A stretch of DNA of 64,000 nt, taken from assembly GCF_034424525.1 (NCBI RefSeq), contig NZ_CP139979.1:1116001-1180000 (forward strand), given 5' to 3'. Positions 21,299-54,635 of the stretch are shown here, piece after piece (the first letter of the stretch is position 1; each line of letters opens with the position of its first letter). The position numbers were made by a program, and so were the translations under genes. The notes beneath the pieces are model-generated. The model ran no database searches. It was not told the origin of the DNA and worked only from the letters and a program-made list of their open reading frames with translations. The DNA comes from Sphingobium yanoikuyae. GTDB taxonomy: Bacteria; Pseudomonadota; Alphaproteobacteria; Sphingomonadales; Sphingomonadaceae.

Positions 21299-23188
21299 TC
21301 AAACAATGTCTTCGGACTGCGCCAGTTCCGCCAGGCGGCTGTCGTGATCGGCTTTCAGCGCGCGGATGCGCTGCTGTTCAGCGAAATTCTCTTCGCTGAA
21401 GTCGCTCTCGAACCGTCTAGTAGCCTCCGCCAGCGCCGTTTCCAGCTCCGGTCCTTGCGCCATCACCCGGATGGCCTCGTCCAGGTCGCGTTGCACGCGA
21501 CTGGGGTCGGTTGTCATCCTATGTGGGGTGAATGTGAACGTATCGGCCCGGAGCATCCCCTTAGCCATATTATACAAGTCACCTTGCCCCAATATGGTAA
21601 GGAGGGCCTGCGTTTCAACTGTTTCTTTGCGGAAGGATGCGGCGATCATCGCATCCAGCAATTGCGCCAGCGCCGGATCGCCGATTCGCAGGCCTGACAG
21701 CGTCTCGCGGTGCAGGATAATCTGCTTCGGATCGCGCAGCAGGCTGGCCAAAATCGCCCGCAGCAGCCGATGTTCCATGCCGTTTGCGCCGATCTCCCGC
21801 GCCTCGTTGCCGGCGGGCGGGACGGGGGGCTTCCAATTGCCCTTCTTGTCGCGCTGCCAGCCGGCGCGGCTGTCACCGCCACCGGAGCCGCGCGGGGCAC
21901 GCTGGCCGCCGCCAAACCGATCCGGCCGGGCAAAGAAGAGCGCATCATAACGCTCCCGGAATGTCTGGGCATAGAGCGCGCGGACATCGGGATGCTGGAT
22001 CGAGTCACTATGGGCGGCTAGCCGCTGCTTGAGCGCCGCCTTCTGCTCGGGCGTGTCGAGCGGACCGACTTTCTGCTCATGCTCCCACAGGCGATCGACC
22101 AGCGGCTGGGCGCCAGCCAGCACGGCGTCCATCGCGCGCGGCCCCTCGGCGCGGAGCAGGTCGTCGGGGTCTTGCCCGGCGGGCAGGGTGGCGAAGGCCA
22201 GGCTGTGACCAGGGCGCAGCAGGGGGAGGGCGCGGGTCGCCGCGCGGATCGCCGCCTTCTGCCCGGCCGCATCGCCGTCGAAGCACAATATCGGCACCTC
22301 GACCATCTTCCACAGCCGCTCGATCTGATGCTCGGTCAGCGCCGTGCCGAGCGGCGCGACGGCGTCGCCGAAACCGGCCTGGGCGAGCGCGATCACATCC
22401 ATATAGCCCTCGACCACGATCACCCGGCCGCTCTGCCGGCTGGCGGGAGAGGCGCGGTCGATATTGTAGAGGGTCCGCCCCTTGTCGAAGAGCGGCGTGT
22501 CGGGCGAATTCAGATATTTGGGTTCGCCTTGGCCGATGATGCGGCCGCCAAAGGCGATCACCCGTCCGCGAATGTCGCGGATCGGCAGCATGAGACGACC
22601 GCGGAACCTATCGTATGTGTCACGTTCGCCGTCAGGGGCGATGAGCAAGCCGGCCTCGACCAGCATCGGCTCGCCAAATTCCTTGAGCGCGCCTTTCAGC
22701 TTCCCGCGCGAATCCGGCGAATAGCCAAAGCCGAACGTGCGCCGGGTCGCATCGCTGATGCCGCGCTTGGCGAGATAGGCGCGGGCGTCGCCGCCGTCGA
22801 TGCCCGCCAGTTGCTCCTCGAAGAAGCCCTGCGCTGCGCCCATTGCGTCATGCAGCCCTTTGGCCTGCTCGGCGCGCTTGGCCGCACGCGGATCGGCTGC
22901 GGGCACCTCCATGCAGGCGGTCGCGGCCAGTTCCTTCACCGCCTCCATGAAAGGCAGGCCGCGCTGATCGGTCATCCAGCGGATCGCATCGCCATGCGCG
23001 CCGCAGCCGAAGCAGTGATAAAAGCCCTTCTCGTCGTTGATCGTGAAGCTGGGCGTCTTCTCGTTATGGAAGGGGCAGCAGGCCTTATATTCGCGGCCCG
23101 CCTTCTGCACCTTCACGGTCTTGCCGATCAACGTCGAAAGCGACGTCCGCGCGCGCAGTTCGTCCAGCCATTGGGGCGTGAGGGTCAT
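21299..23188 (-). CDS. dnaG: DNA primase
   Basis: DnaG makes RNA primers at the replication fork. The 629-residue protein has an N-terminal CHC2 zinc ribbon (ACCPFHNEKTPSFTI ... YHCFGCGAHGD), an RNA polymerase core and a Toprim domain with VVEGYMDVIALAQAG. The C-terminal part would bind the DnaB helicase. It precedes rpoD on the same strand. Only 4 bp separate its ATG from the stop of the DUF559 gene, so the dnaG leader has been replaced or supplemented by the repeat element. Confidence 0.97.
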   Translation of the reverse strand: MTLTPQWLDELRARTSLSTLIGKTVKVQKAGREYKACCPFHNEKTPSFTINDEKGFYHCFGCGAHGDAIRWMTDQRGLPFMEAVKELAATACMEVPAADPRAAKRAEQAKGLHDAMGAAQGFFEEQLAGIDGGDARAYLAKRGISDATRRTFGFGYSPDSRGKLKGALKEFGEPMLVEAGLLIAPDGERDTYDRFRGRLMLPIRDIRGRVIAFGGRIIGQGEPKYLNSPDTPLFDKGRTLYNIDRASPASRQSGRVIVVEGYMDVIALAQAGFGDAVAPLGTALTEHQIERLWKMVEVPILCFDGDAAGQKAAIRAATRALPLLRPGHSLAFATLPAGQDPDDLLRAEGPRAMDAVLAGAQPLVDRLWEHEQKVGPLDTPEQKAALKQRLAAHSDSIQHPDVRALYAQTFRERYDALFFARPDRFGGGQRAPRGSGGGDSRAGWQRDKKGNWKPPVPPAGNEAREIGANGMEHRLLRAILASLLRDPKQIILHRETLSGLRIGDPALAQLLDAMIAASFRKETVETQALLTILGQGDLYNMAKGMLRADTFTFTPHRMTTDPSRVQRDLDEAIRVMAQGPELETALAEATRRFESDFSEENFAEQQRIRALKADHDSRLAELAQSEDIV

Positions 23189-23192
23189 CTAA

Positions 23193-23594
23193 TTAAAGCC
23201 CCTCCCTTCCAAGGGAGGGGTTGGGGTGGGTGATCTTCTGCCTTTCCGGCATGGCGCGGGCACGATCCAGAATGACGCTCAGCACGCCTTCCAGATTGTC
23301 CCGAATGTCGAAGTTGGAGAAGCGCAAAACCAGATAGCCCTGATGTGCAAGGTCAAAGTCTCTATCTCGATCCTTGATAGCATCATGGCTATCATCATCG
23401 ACTTCTATGATGAGGCCGAGGAGGGGGCAGAGAAAGTCACAGATATAGGGTTCGATCACGGCTTGTCGGCGGAATTTGAAGCCTTCCAGCTGGGAGCCGC
23501 GTAGGGCGCCCCAAAGGCGGCGTTCATATTCCGTAGGCTCCCGCCGCATCTCGCGCGCAAATTGACCGAGTCTCGCATTGATGCGCAGCGCCAT
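23193..23594 (-). CDS. DUF559 (Vsr-like) endonuclease domain protein
   Basis: This 133-residue protein of the DUF559 family has the very-short-patch-repair-like fold. The family core is visible: TEYERRLWGALRG, FKFRRQAVIEPYICDFLCP, LIIEVDDDSH and GYLVLRFSNFDI, with the acidic catalytic residues intact. The start is ATG 23594; its upstream region, including GGGTGGGTG, is an arm of a 36-bp inverted repeat. The last residues (THPNPSLGREGL) are encoded by the opposite arm. The whole gene thus lies inside one repeat-bounded element between yqeY and dnaG. Confidence 0.88.
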   Translation of the reverse strand: MALRINARLGQFAREMRREPTEYERRLWGALRGSQLEGFKFRRQAVIEPYICDFLCPLLGLIIEVDDDSHDAIKDRDRDFDLAHQGYLVLRFSNFDIRDNLEGVLSVILDRARAMPERQKITHPNPSLGREGL

Positions 23595-23628
23595 CACCCA
23601 CCCCAACCCCTCCCTTGGAAGGGAGGGG
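23199..23628. mobile_element. repeat-bounded DUF559 element
   Basis: The 36-nt arms at 23199-23234 and 23593-23628 are perfect inverted complements. Each arm contains its own hairpin (CCCCTCCCTT / AAGGGAGGGG with a 2-nt loop) followed by a GGGGTGGGTGAT tail pointing inwards. The 430-bp unit encodes only the DUF559 nuclease. It interrupts the yqeY-dnaG neighbourhood. A gene-less relative of the same repeat lies at 54519-54635. No flanking target duplication is evident, so mobility is inference. Confidence 0.7.
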
Positions 23629-23671
23629 TTATTATGTCAGTATCGCACGCGCATGTCAGCCCAGCGAAAGG

Positions 23672-24124
23672 TCAGCTCAGCGCCGCCTTCACCAGCCCGC
23701 TCGCCTTGCTCATGTCGATCACGGCGCCATGGCGTTCCTTGAGCACGGCCATCACCTTGCCCATGTCCTTGACGCTTTCCGCGCCGATCTCGGCCTTGAT
23801 GCCCTCGATCGCGGCGCGGGTCTCGTCCTCGCTCAGCTGCGCCGGCAGGAAGGTTTCGATCACGTCCAGCTCGGCCTGTTCCTTGGCGGCCAGTTCGTCG
23901 CGGCCGCCGCTCTTGAACATGTCGATCGATTCGCGGCGCTGCTTCACCATCTTCTGCAGCACCTCGACCACGACGGTGTCGTCGTCGGGCACATTGCTGG
24001 CGGTGCGCAGTTCGATGTCGCGATCCTTGAGCTTGGCCAGGATCAGGCGCACGGCAGCCAGGCGATCCTTGTCGCCGGCCTTCATGGACTCCACTTGGGC
24101 GCTCTTGATGGTGTCGCGAATCAT
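23672..24124 (-). CDS. GatB/YqeY domain-containing protein
   Basis: This 150-residue YqeY-like protein is related to the tRNA-binding tail of amidotransferase subunit GatB. Visible features are MIRDTIKSAQVESMKAGDKD at the start, RLILAKLKDRDIE, and the C-terminal helical part ending DMSKASGLVKAAL. Any ORF reading further upstream would be antisense to carA, so ATG 24124 is the start. It is divergent from carA and upstream of the DUF559 element, dnaG and rpoD, a common alphaproteobacterial order. Confidence 0.92.
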   Translation of the reverse strand: MIRDTIKSAQVESMKAGDKDRLAAVRLILAKLKDRDIELRTASNVPDDDTVVVEVLQKMVKQRRESIDMFKSGGRDELAAKEQAELDVIETFLPAQLSEDETRAAIEGIKAEIGAESVKDMGKVMAVLKERHGAVIDMSKASGLVKAALS

Positions 24125-54518: not shown

Positions 54519-54635
54519 CCCCTCCCTTTTCAGGGAGGGGCAGGGGGTGGGTGCGCCGCACTTGCGGCGCCAATTCGCTAGGGCACAGCTCGCTACGCTC
54601 GCACCCACCCCAACCCCTCCCTGGAAGGGAGGGGC
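54519..54635. repeat. gene-less relative of the DUF559 repeat element
   Basis: The arms at 54519-54554 and 54601-54635 are inverted copies of the CCCCTCCCTT...AAGGGAGGGG hairpin plus GGGGTGGGTG tail found around the DUF559 gene at 23199-23628. The 46-nt interior has a GCGCCGCA/TGCGGCGC hairpin and no ORF. It lies 10 bp from the ilvC stop and fills most of the gap to yceI. Confidence 0.8.

Follow-up and report, generated by a model that had tools for sequence, protein, structure and literature searches.

Hairpin repeats are common in bacterial genomes and, to our knowledge, only their GTAG class has a proposed enzyme partner. We describe here a DUF559 nuclease gene enclosed by inverted hairpin arms in a 64,000 nt stretch of the Sphingobium yanoikuyae genome (NZ_CP139979.1, positions 1,116,001 to 1,180,000; 'the window' below, always meaning this whole stretch). 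The unit is probably a minimal mobile cassette in which one nuclease gene is enclosed by its cognate arm in two inverted copies. The same layout, with an HUH tyrosine transposase and a GTAG tag, is found in the sections drawn on here from three papers on repetitive extragenic palindromic (REP) sequences and REP-associated tyrosine transposases (RAYTs) (PMC3116915, PMC2817692, PMC3733652). CGTC-tagged REPs appear in the relevant text of Di Nocera et al. (2013; PMC3733652) as hairpin repeats, often in inverted pairs, that are common in Alphaproteobacteria and reported to lack a dedicated transposase. A DUF559 protein of Caulobacter, VsrA, is discussed as a mismatch-repair enzyme in the portion consulted of PMC12907096, where term counts found neither 'inverted repeat' nor 'palindrom-'. 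Among the matches listed, literature searches gave no paper linking DUF559 or GIY-YIG genes to REP-like repeats, subscription papers and bioRxiv being mostly outside their scope, and a search with the repeat sequence gave only unrelated papers among the matches listed.

A nuclease gene between inverted arms

The arms of the unit (23192-23234 and 23593-23635) are 43 nt long and 93 % identical, and their core (23199-23234 and 23593-23628; locus L005) is a perfect inverted repeat matching at 36 of 36 positions. A Pfam scan detected a single gene between them, encoding the DUF559 protein (PF04480, E 8e-30); scanned at E values up to 1, this protein matched DUF559 alone, and no HUH tyrosine transposase was found. 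Its ATG (23592-23594, minus strand) lies where one arm ends on its inner side, and the opposite arm encodes its last 13 residues, ITHPNPSLGREGL. Each arm is made up of two parts, a hairpin outside and a G-rich foot inside, and the foot together with the 3' half of the hairpin gives four G-tracts with loops of 1-2 nt. The cassette separates yqeY from dnaG. A preliminary description of this DNA had proposed a DUF559-only unit with intact acidic motifs, bounded by a perfect 36-nt inverted repeat of which one arm leads up to the ATG and the other encodes the C-terminus (a dozen residues in its count), and splitting the yqeY-dnaG neighbourhood; each of these features is confirmed.

The conserved E-D-H-D of the Vsr-like catalytic domain is present in DUF559, with E24, D53, H70 and D75 in the window protein being invariant across an alignment of 33 rows. 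The folds nearest to the predicted one are nucleases, and it is close to that of a homing endonuclease. Against the Vsr model TIGR00632 the protein gave no hit at E 0.01 (16.3 bits were reached by one paralogue, against a cut-off of 97.85), and its best match among the PADLOC defence models had an E value of only 0.039, over 48 residues. No cytosine methyltransferase lies beside the gene, whose neighbours are yqeY and dnaG, and no Rfam match was obtained at 23100-23750 up to E 1. A GTAG tag was not found at the foot of the hairpin, which reads TTGGGGTGGGTGAT; the other printed feet were G-rich variants.

Bracketing of DUF559 genes across genomes

Bracketing was scored by local alignment of the 250 bp left flank of a locus to the reverse complement of its 250 bp right flank, with a threshold of at least 18; the controls were positions of matching size within the same DNA, 0.8-4 kb distant. 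DUF559 domains were placed by hidden Markov model (HMM) for the final counts. The loci tested were the best-scoring matches and not a random draw, and the bracketed fraction accordingly applies to that part of the family. One locus whose score ran through N (L188) was excluded; loci that were cut or contained N, 7 of 80 among the named loci and 1 of 40 among the second family sample, were left out of the counts.

Over all sets together, 125 of 175 DUF559 loci were bracketed, compared with 6 of 3,739 controls. The S. yanoikuyae genome itself has six DUF559 genes, five of which are enclosed by matched inverted arms that differ in sequence gene by gene (0/36 controls), more than chance would give. 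Gene and repeat do behave as one unit, as had been proposed. Within the same bacterial family, bracketing was observed for 26 of 29 loci in a first set and 32 of 39 in a second (with fixed gene coordinates, likewise 32/39, against 2 of 1,232 controls). The corresponding figures were 13 of 28 for the same phylum and 49 of 73 for named genomes from a GTDB scan. DUF559 genes that usually lack the repeat, which the preliminary description had named as evidence against its proposal, are thus not what was observed among well-scoring loci. Bracketed named loci came from Desulfobacterota (L189, L198), Chloroflexota (L214, L218), a Rickettsiales genome (L215), a gastranaerophilalean cyanobacterium (L229) and, narrowly (score 18.5), an anammox planctomycete (L196); loci from Nitrospirota (L223, L241) and Dadabacteria (L207) scored under the threshold. 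Three other records, from Deinococcus, Sphingomonas and Azospirillum, scored 20.5-28, the gene on the Deinococcus plasmid having 20.5.

A within-family control used 17 genomes with weak best matches and three with middling ones, taken from 149, and yielded 29 further DUF559 loci. None of the 19 weak loci (E above 1e-19) was bracketed, the best HMM-placed score being 10.5, compared with six of the ten stronger loci; two of the other four were degenerate as well. Acidic or histidine active-site positions were missing from 16 of the 19 weak domains (L390-L392, L394-L404, L413, L414), and the remaining three lay within larger open frames of 301, 444 and 1,877 aa. These results indicate that bracketing tracks the small intact enzyme and not the domain itself.

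Three further observations were made during this survey. Two DUF559 genes (L045, L233) have far longer inverted arms of other sequence, with scores of 98.5 and 125. Escherichia coli ycjD, also a DUF559 gene, was ruled out as a bracketed example (score 9, with a one-sided repeat only); the 46-bp hairpin-plus-foot unit beside it (L415:1969-2014), which may be the E. coli repeat boxC, is shared by 5,376 of 5,426 genomes of the species, with a median of 19 occurrences. Phages and plasmids were rejected as the main carriers, with relatives of one query protein in only 2 of 50,697 phage and 44 of 72,556 plasmid records.

Structure of the arms

Most bracketed named loci follow one arm plan: a C/T-rich stem like CCCTCTCCC, a short loop, the complement of the stem and a foot like TTGGGGTGAGGGG. 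A perfect stem of at least 6 bp was present in 211 of 242 arms and was formed by 52 distinct strings, many of them overlapping, indicating that pairing is maintained while the letters vary. In the arms at the yqeY-dnaG site the loop-closing pairs change together (TTCCAA, TACCTA, GCTTGC). The reading frame enters or crosses the 3' arm in 100 of 125 cassettes, and 57 of the 90 cassettes having an in-frame ATG carry one at -15 to +30 nt relative to the inner end of the 5' arm.

Four G-tracts with loops of 1-3 nt, a strict G-quadruplex pattern, were found on the hairpin-to-gene strand of 132 of 250 arms, where dinucleotide shuffles averaged 2.75; the pattern occurred on the other strand in 18/250 and on either strand in 147/250. 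With loops of up to 7 nt the pattern was present in 151 of 250 DUF559 arms compared with 1 of 46 GIY-YIG arms (see below). A quadruplex role for the DUF559 arms, suggested by these sequence patterns, is offered as a lead only.

Alternative cassettes at the yqeY-dnaG site

Of 81 genomes in the genus, a dnaG query located the site in 80, and 70 of these, including that of the window, were studied. Twenty-nine of the 70 sites were occupied by a DUF559 gene, 20 by a GIY-YIG gene (two of these alleles being fragments, L349 and L358) and 21 by neither. The DUF559 gene of the window is free-standing here, and both empty and replaced alleles occur; eight genomes have an empty site with a spacer of only 13-16 nt. 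The preliminary description had regarded an identical position in all strains, with no empty sites, as telling against its proposal, and the site does not show this pattern.

The DUF559 proteins of the site fell into two groups of 11 and 18 members (single linkage, 60 % identity). Every member of the group of 11 carries GGGGTGGGT as the foot of one or both arms, whilst in the group of 18 there were GGGGAGGGCATG-like feet in 14 members and GGGGGGTGGGC feet in four. No protein was found with the foot of the other group. Foot and nuclease type are inherited together at this site. In one member of the group of 11 (L370) the loop resembles that of the other group and the foot is its own, which suggests that the foot carries specificity. 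The eight GIY-YIG alleles inspected in sequence (L109, L115, L119, L121, L122, L125-L127) all have a palindrome of their own, beside or inside the remains of a C-rich DUF559-type arm.

On a tree built from flanking yqeY and dnaG sequence (70 rows by 701 columns, with stars on 32 of its 67 inner branches), 25 changes over 49 genomes were needed to account for the four cassette types, against a mean of 24.1 and a range of 19-28 in 200 label shuffles. A poorly resolved tree from dnaG only gave 23 changes over the 49 genomes. Median ratios of non-synonymous to synonymous substitution (Ka/Ks) in five groups of same-site genes (25 genes) were 0.074, 0.112, 0.092, 0.144 and 0.138, reflecting purifying selection. 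Low Ka/Ks combined with as many type changes as in shuffled labels indicates that a functional gene is maintained whilst the whole cassette is repeatedly replaced. A Sphingomonas plasmid record also carries a bracketed DUF559 gene at the yqeY-dnaG site.

Gene-less pairs and dispersed palindromes

A second inverted pair in the window (54519-54634) has arms of the same class as the cassette and no gene, confirming the gene-less relative that had been placed at 54519-54635 (Table 1). Comparison with relatives showed the pair whole in L276 (98.9 % identity in the neighbouring gene), reduced to a single hairpin in L277 (98.6 %) and absent from L278 (97.5 %) and L275, the last being 99.2 % identical in the neighbouring gene and providing the comparison of empty and occupied sites that had been proposed. 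Similarly, L245-L247, the closest relatives (97-98 %), lack the cassette between nrdA and nrdB, and single hairpins occur there in some other genomes of the genus. The nrdA-nrdB spacer (L244-L273) is a hot spot that holds DUF559 cassettes, single hairpins, CGTC-like repeats and various small open reading frames (ORFs).

The S. yanoikuyae genome contains 64 occurrences of the exact palindrome pattern and three of the reversed one. Among the matches listed, at least ten pairs are spaced 95-101 bp and at least five 69-78 bp apart, and at least three pairs spaced 408-447 bp are DUF559 cassettes. Five 98-bp pairs at unrelated sites (L306, L317, L321, L322, L324) belong to a single element, with 90-98 % identity over 164-193 bp. 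The relation of gene-bearing to gene-less pairs is similar to that between REP sequences and RAYTs, as had been suggested, and the earlier proposal that DUF559 proteins process or spread this repeat class is partly supported. Across 149 family genomes, in a correlation that takes no account of phylogeny, palindrome number followed DUF559 number with a rho of 0.57 (0.42 after deducting two palindromes per gene; 0.06 for the reversed-pattern control). The median was 31 palindromes in 71 genomes with a strong DUF559 match, 2.5 in 56 with only weaker matches and 4 in 22 with none, and the highest count in the family set was 293 per genome.

Table 1. Positions in the window of the DUF559 cassette, the host genes on either side of it and the gene-less pair
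Feature	Position	Strand	Remarks
DUF559 nuclease gene (Vsr/EDxHD-like fold, predicted)	23193..23594	-	133 aa
Left-arm hairpin	23199..23220	+	CCCCTCCC-TTCCAA-GGGAGGGG
Left-arm G-rich foot	23221..23234	+	TTGGGGTGGGTGAT
Right-arm G-rich foot	23593..23606	-	On - strand identical to left foot
Right-arm hairpin	23607..23628	-	
dnaG	21299..23188	-	Flanking host gene, outside cassette
yqeY	23672..24124	-	Flanking host gene, outside cassette
Gene-less pair, left arm	54519..54553	+	Hairpin and foot CAGGGGGTGGGTG
Gene-less pair, right arm	54602..54634	-	

Parallel cassettes with GIY-YIG genes

Small GIY-YIG genes from the same bacterial family (L134-L163) were bracketed in 22 of 30 cases at a score of at least 18, compared with 1 of 357 controls. 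Their arms belong to other repeat classes, and some have a CGTC-stem-loop-stem-CCA plan, most clearly L142; this assignment follows the wording of the description by Di Nocera et al. (PMC3733652) and not a comparison of figures. We tentatively propose, as a possibility that falls somewhat short of probable, that many abundant non-GTAG hairpin repeats owe their spread to nucleases of homing type and not to transposases: DUF559 enzymes (EDxHD-like fold) would spread the C/T-rich class, and small GIY-YIG enzymes the CGTC class and those related to it. Each nuclease and its arms would then form a hairpin-homing cassette that cuts cognate arms and is copied into them, with different nuclease families competing for the same intergenic sites. 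If so, CGTC-tagged REPs would gain the enzyme they were reported to lack. Together with the wholesale cassette swaps at one site and the closeness of the fold to a homing endonuclease, the recognition of GIY-YIG genes as parallel cassettes with other repeat classes goes beyond the preliminary description.

Proposed mechanism and alternatives

On balance we favour a system that works like REP/RAYT with a different enzyme, in which gene-bearing cassettes are autonomous and gene-less pairs or single hairpins are non-autonomous or decayed. The nuclease would recognize its own arm, with the foot providing specificity and the hairpin a folded target, and would cut or nick there. Homing-like repair could then copy a cassette, with its gene as well as its arms, into the break, either between the arms or over them, and incomplete copying may leave gene-less pairs behind. 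Wholesale swaps at one site and a fold near that of a homing endonuclease indicate homing-like copying as much as transposition, and we consider it the most economical mechanism.

Several observations weigh against this interpretation. Fifty of the 175 loci were unbracketed, including 15 of 28 in the wider phylum sample, as were two of eight single-domain loci with an apparently intact site in the 29-locus within-family control. At ycjD the repeat of the C-rich class stands on one side alone. Across the 125 bracketed loci, arm and protein similarity showed no significant general co-variation (Mantel rho 0.079, permutation range up to 0.144). Arms were common only to 58 pairs at 65 % protein identity or more: median arm similarity was 0.83 at identities of 0.65-0.8 and 0.92 above these, against 0.32 at 0.35-0.55, a link confined to short distances as expected if specificity drifts. 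Genomes with weaker matches had fewer palindromes (median 2.5) than those free of DUF559 (median 4), the genome-level correlation is blind to phylogeny, and genome G049 contains as many as 83 palindromes but lacks any DUF559 match; its gene may have been lost or be absent from the assembly, or another enzyme may be active. Finally, clean insertion junctions and target-site duplications were sought at nrdA-nrdB, 54519-54634 and L322 but not found; flanks there were diverged or rearranged, though all three comparisons do show presence and absence; a query with the L321 flank matched in one of six relatives, over 36 bases.

The main rival, which we judge unlikely though worth keeping in view, is RAYT-like single-strand transposition, whereby DUF559 would nick the folded arm at the foot and the pair would move single-stranded with no homing step. 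Near-constant-size gene-less pairs at unrelated sites, two of them 98 % identical, are consistent with such a route, as are presence and absence between close relatives and the resemblance of the inverted hairpin-foot pairs to REP doublets forming hairpins (REPINs). However, a metal-dependent nuclease fold is predicted for DUF559 and no HUH tyrosine transposase emerged from the Pfam scan, so strand joining would have to rely on the host, and recurrent replacement at one site suits copying into existing arms better.

It is considerably less probable that another enzyme spreads the palindromes and that DUF559 genes were captured between them by chance. Palindromes outnumber DUF559 genes in the S. 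yanoikuyae genome (64 to 6), other small ORFs share the nrdA-nrdB hot spot, and the palindromes of G049 occur without DUF559, all of which speaks for chance capture. Against this, same-size neighbouring stretches were bracketed in just 6 of 3,739 cases and weak or degenerate DUF559 domains in 0 of 19, the pairing recurs in several phyla, and the foot tracks nuclease type at one site. A Vsr-like mismatch-repair enzyme with incidental repeats, following the role put forward for Caulobacter VsrA in the part consulted of PMC12907096, is very improbable for the window gene: it lies between yqeY and dnaG and not by a cytosine methyltransferase, a housekeeping repair gene would not be expected in 1-10 copies per genome or to be swapped at one site, and the bracketing is specific. 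Least probable of all is that the hairpins are bidirectional terminators or mRNA-stabilizing ends selected for expression or insulation of DUF559 and with no part in mobility, which would suit strong G+C hairpins at the ends of a gene under purifying selection but requires neither matched feet nor abundant gene-less copies (as many as 293 palindromes in a genome), leaves cassette swapping unexplained and finds no Rfam match at the window site.

Homing-like spread of nuclease-and-arm cassettes would mean that DUF559-type nucleases may be the spreaders of a common bacterial repeat class, and suggests a role for a domain named for its unknown function. It would also account for the occurrence of such genes at one intergenic site with differing repeats in neighbouring species. 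As the repeat classes are linked to two homing-type nuclease folds across phyla, the question of the enzyme becomes testable with single small proteins and short DNA.

Comparison with known systems

The cassettes share terminal hairpins and non-autonomous derivatives with IS200/IS605-type insertion sequences and miniature inverted-repeat transposable elements, but differ from both in having no transposase gene, and a clean target duplication was not seen. Unlike the EDxHD homing endonuclease I-Bth0305I, DUF559 has neither intron nor intein and consists of one small domain of ~110 residues, and its arms are repeats at many genomic sites instead of one conserved gene. In contrast to Vsr and Caulobacter VsrA (itself a DUF559 protein), the window DUF559 gene has no linked methyltransferase, and DUF559 genes are often multicopy, cassette-borne and swapped between relatives. 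The arms resemble CGTC-tagged REPs, as characterized in the text used of PMC3733652, in being hairpin repeats often found as inverted pairs, yet DUF559 genes occur mostly with the C/T-rich class, whereas repeats of the CGTC plan bracket some GIY-YIG genes. The closest parallel is with REP/REPIN-RAYT systems, in which an enzyme gene is likewise flanked by inverted hairpins, gene-less inverted pairs are dispersed and families vary by genome. The DUF559 system departs from these in that its enzyme is a nuclease of predicted Vsr/EDxHD-like fold and not an HUH tyrosine transposase (TnpA-REP), in that its arms lack the GTAG tag and have a G-rich foot, more than half of them with the potential to form a quadruplex, and in that whole cassettes are replaced at a fixed site.
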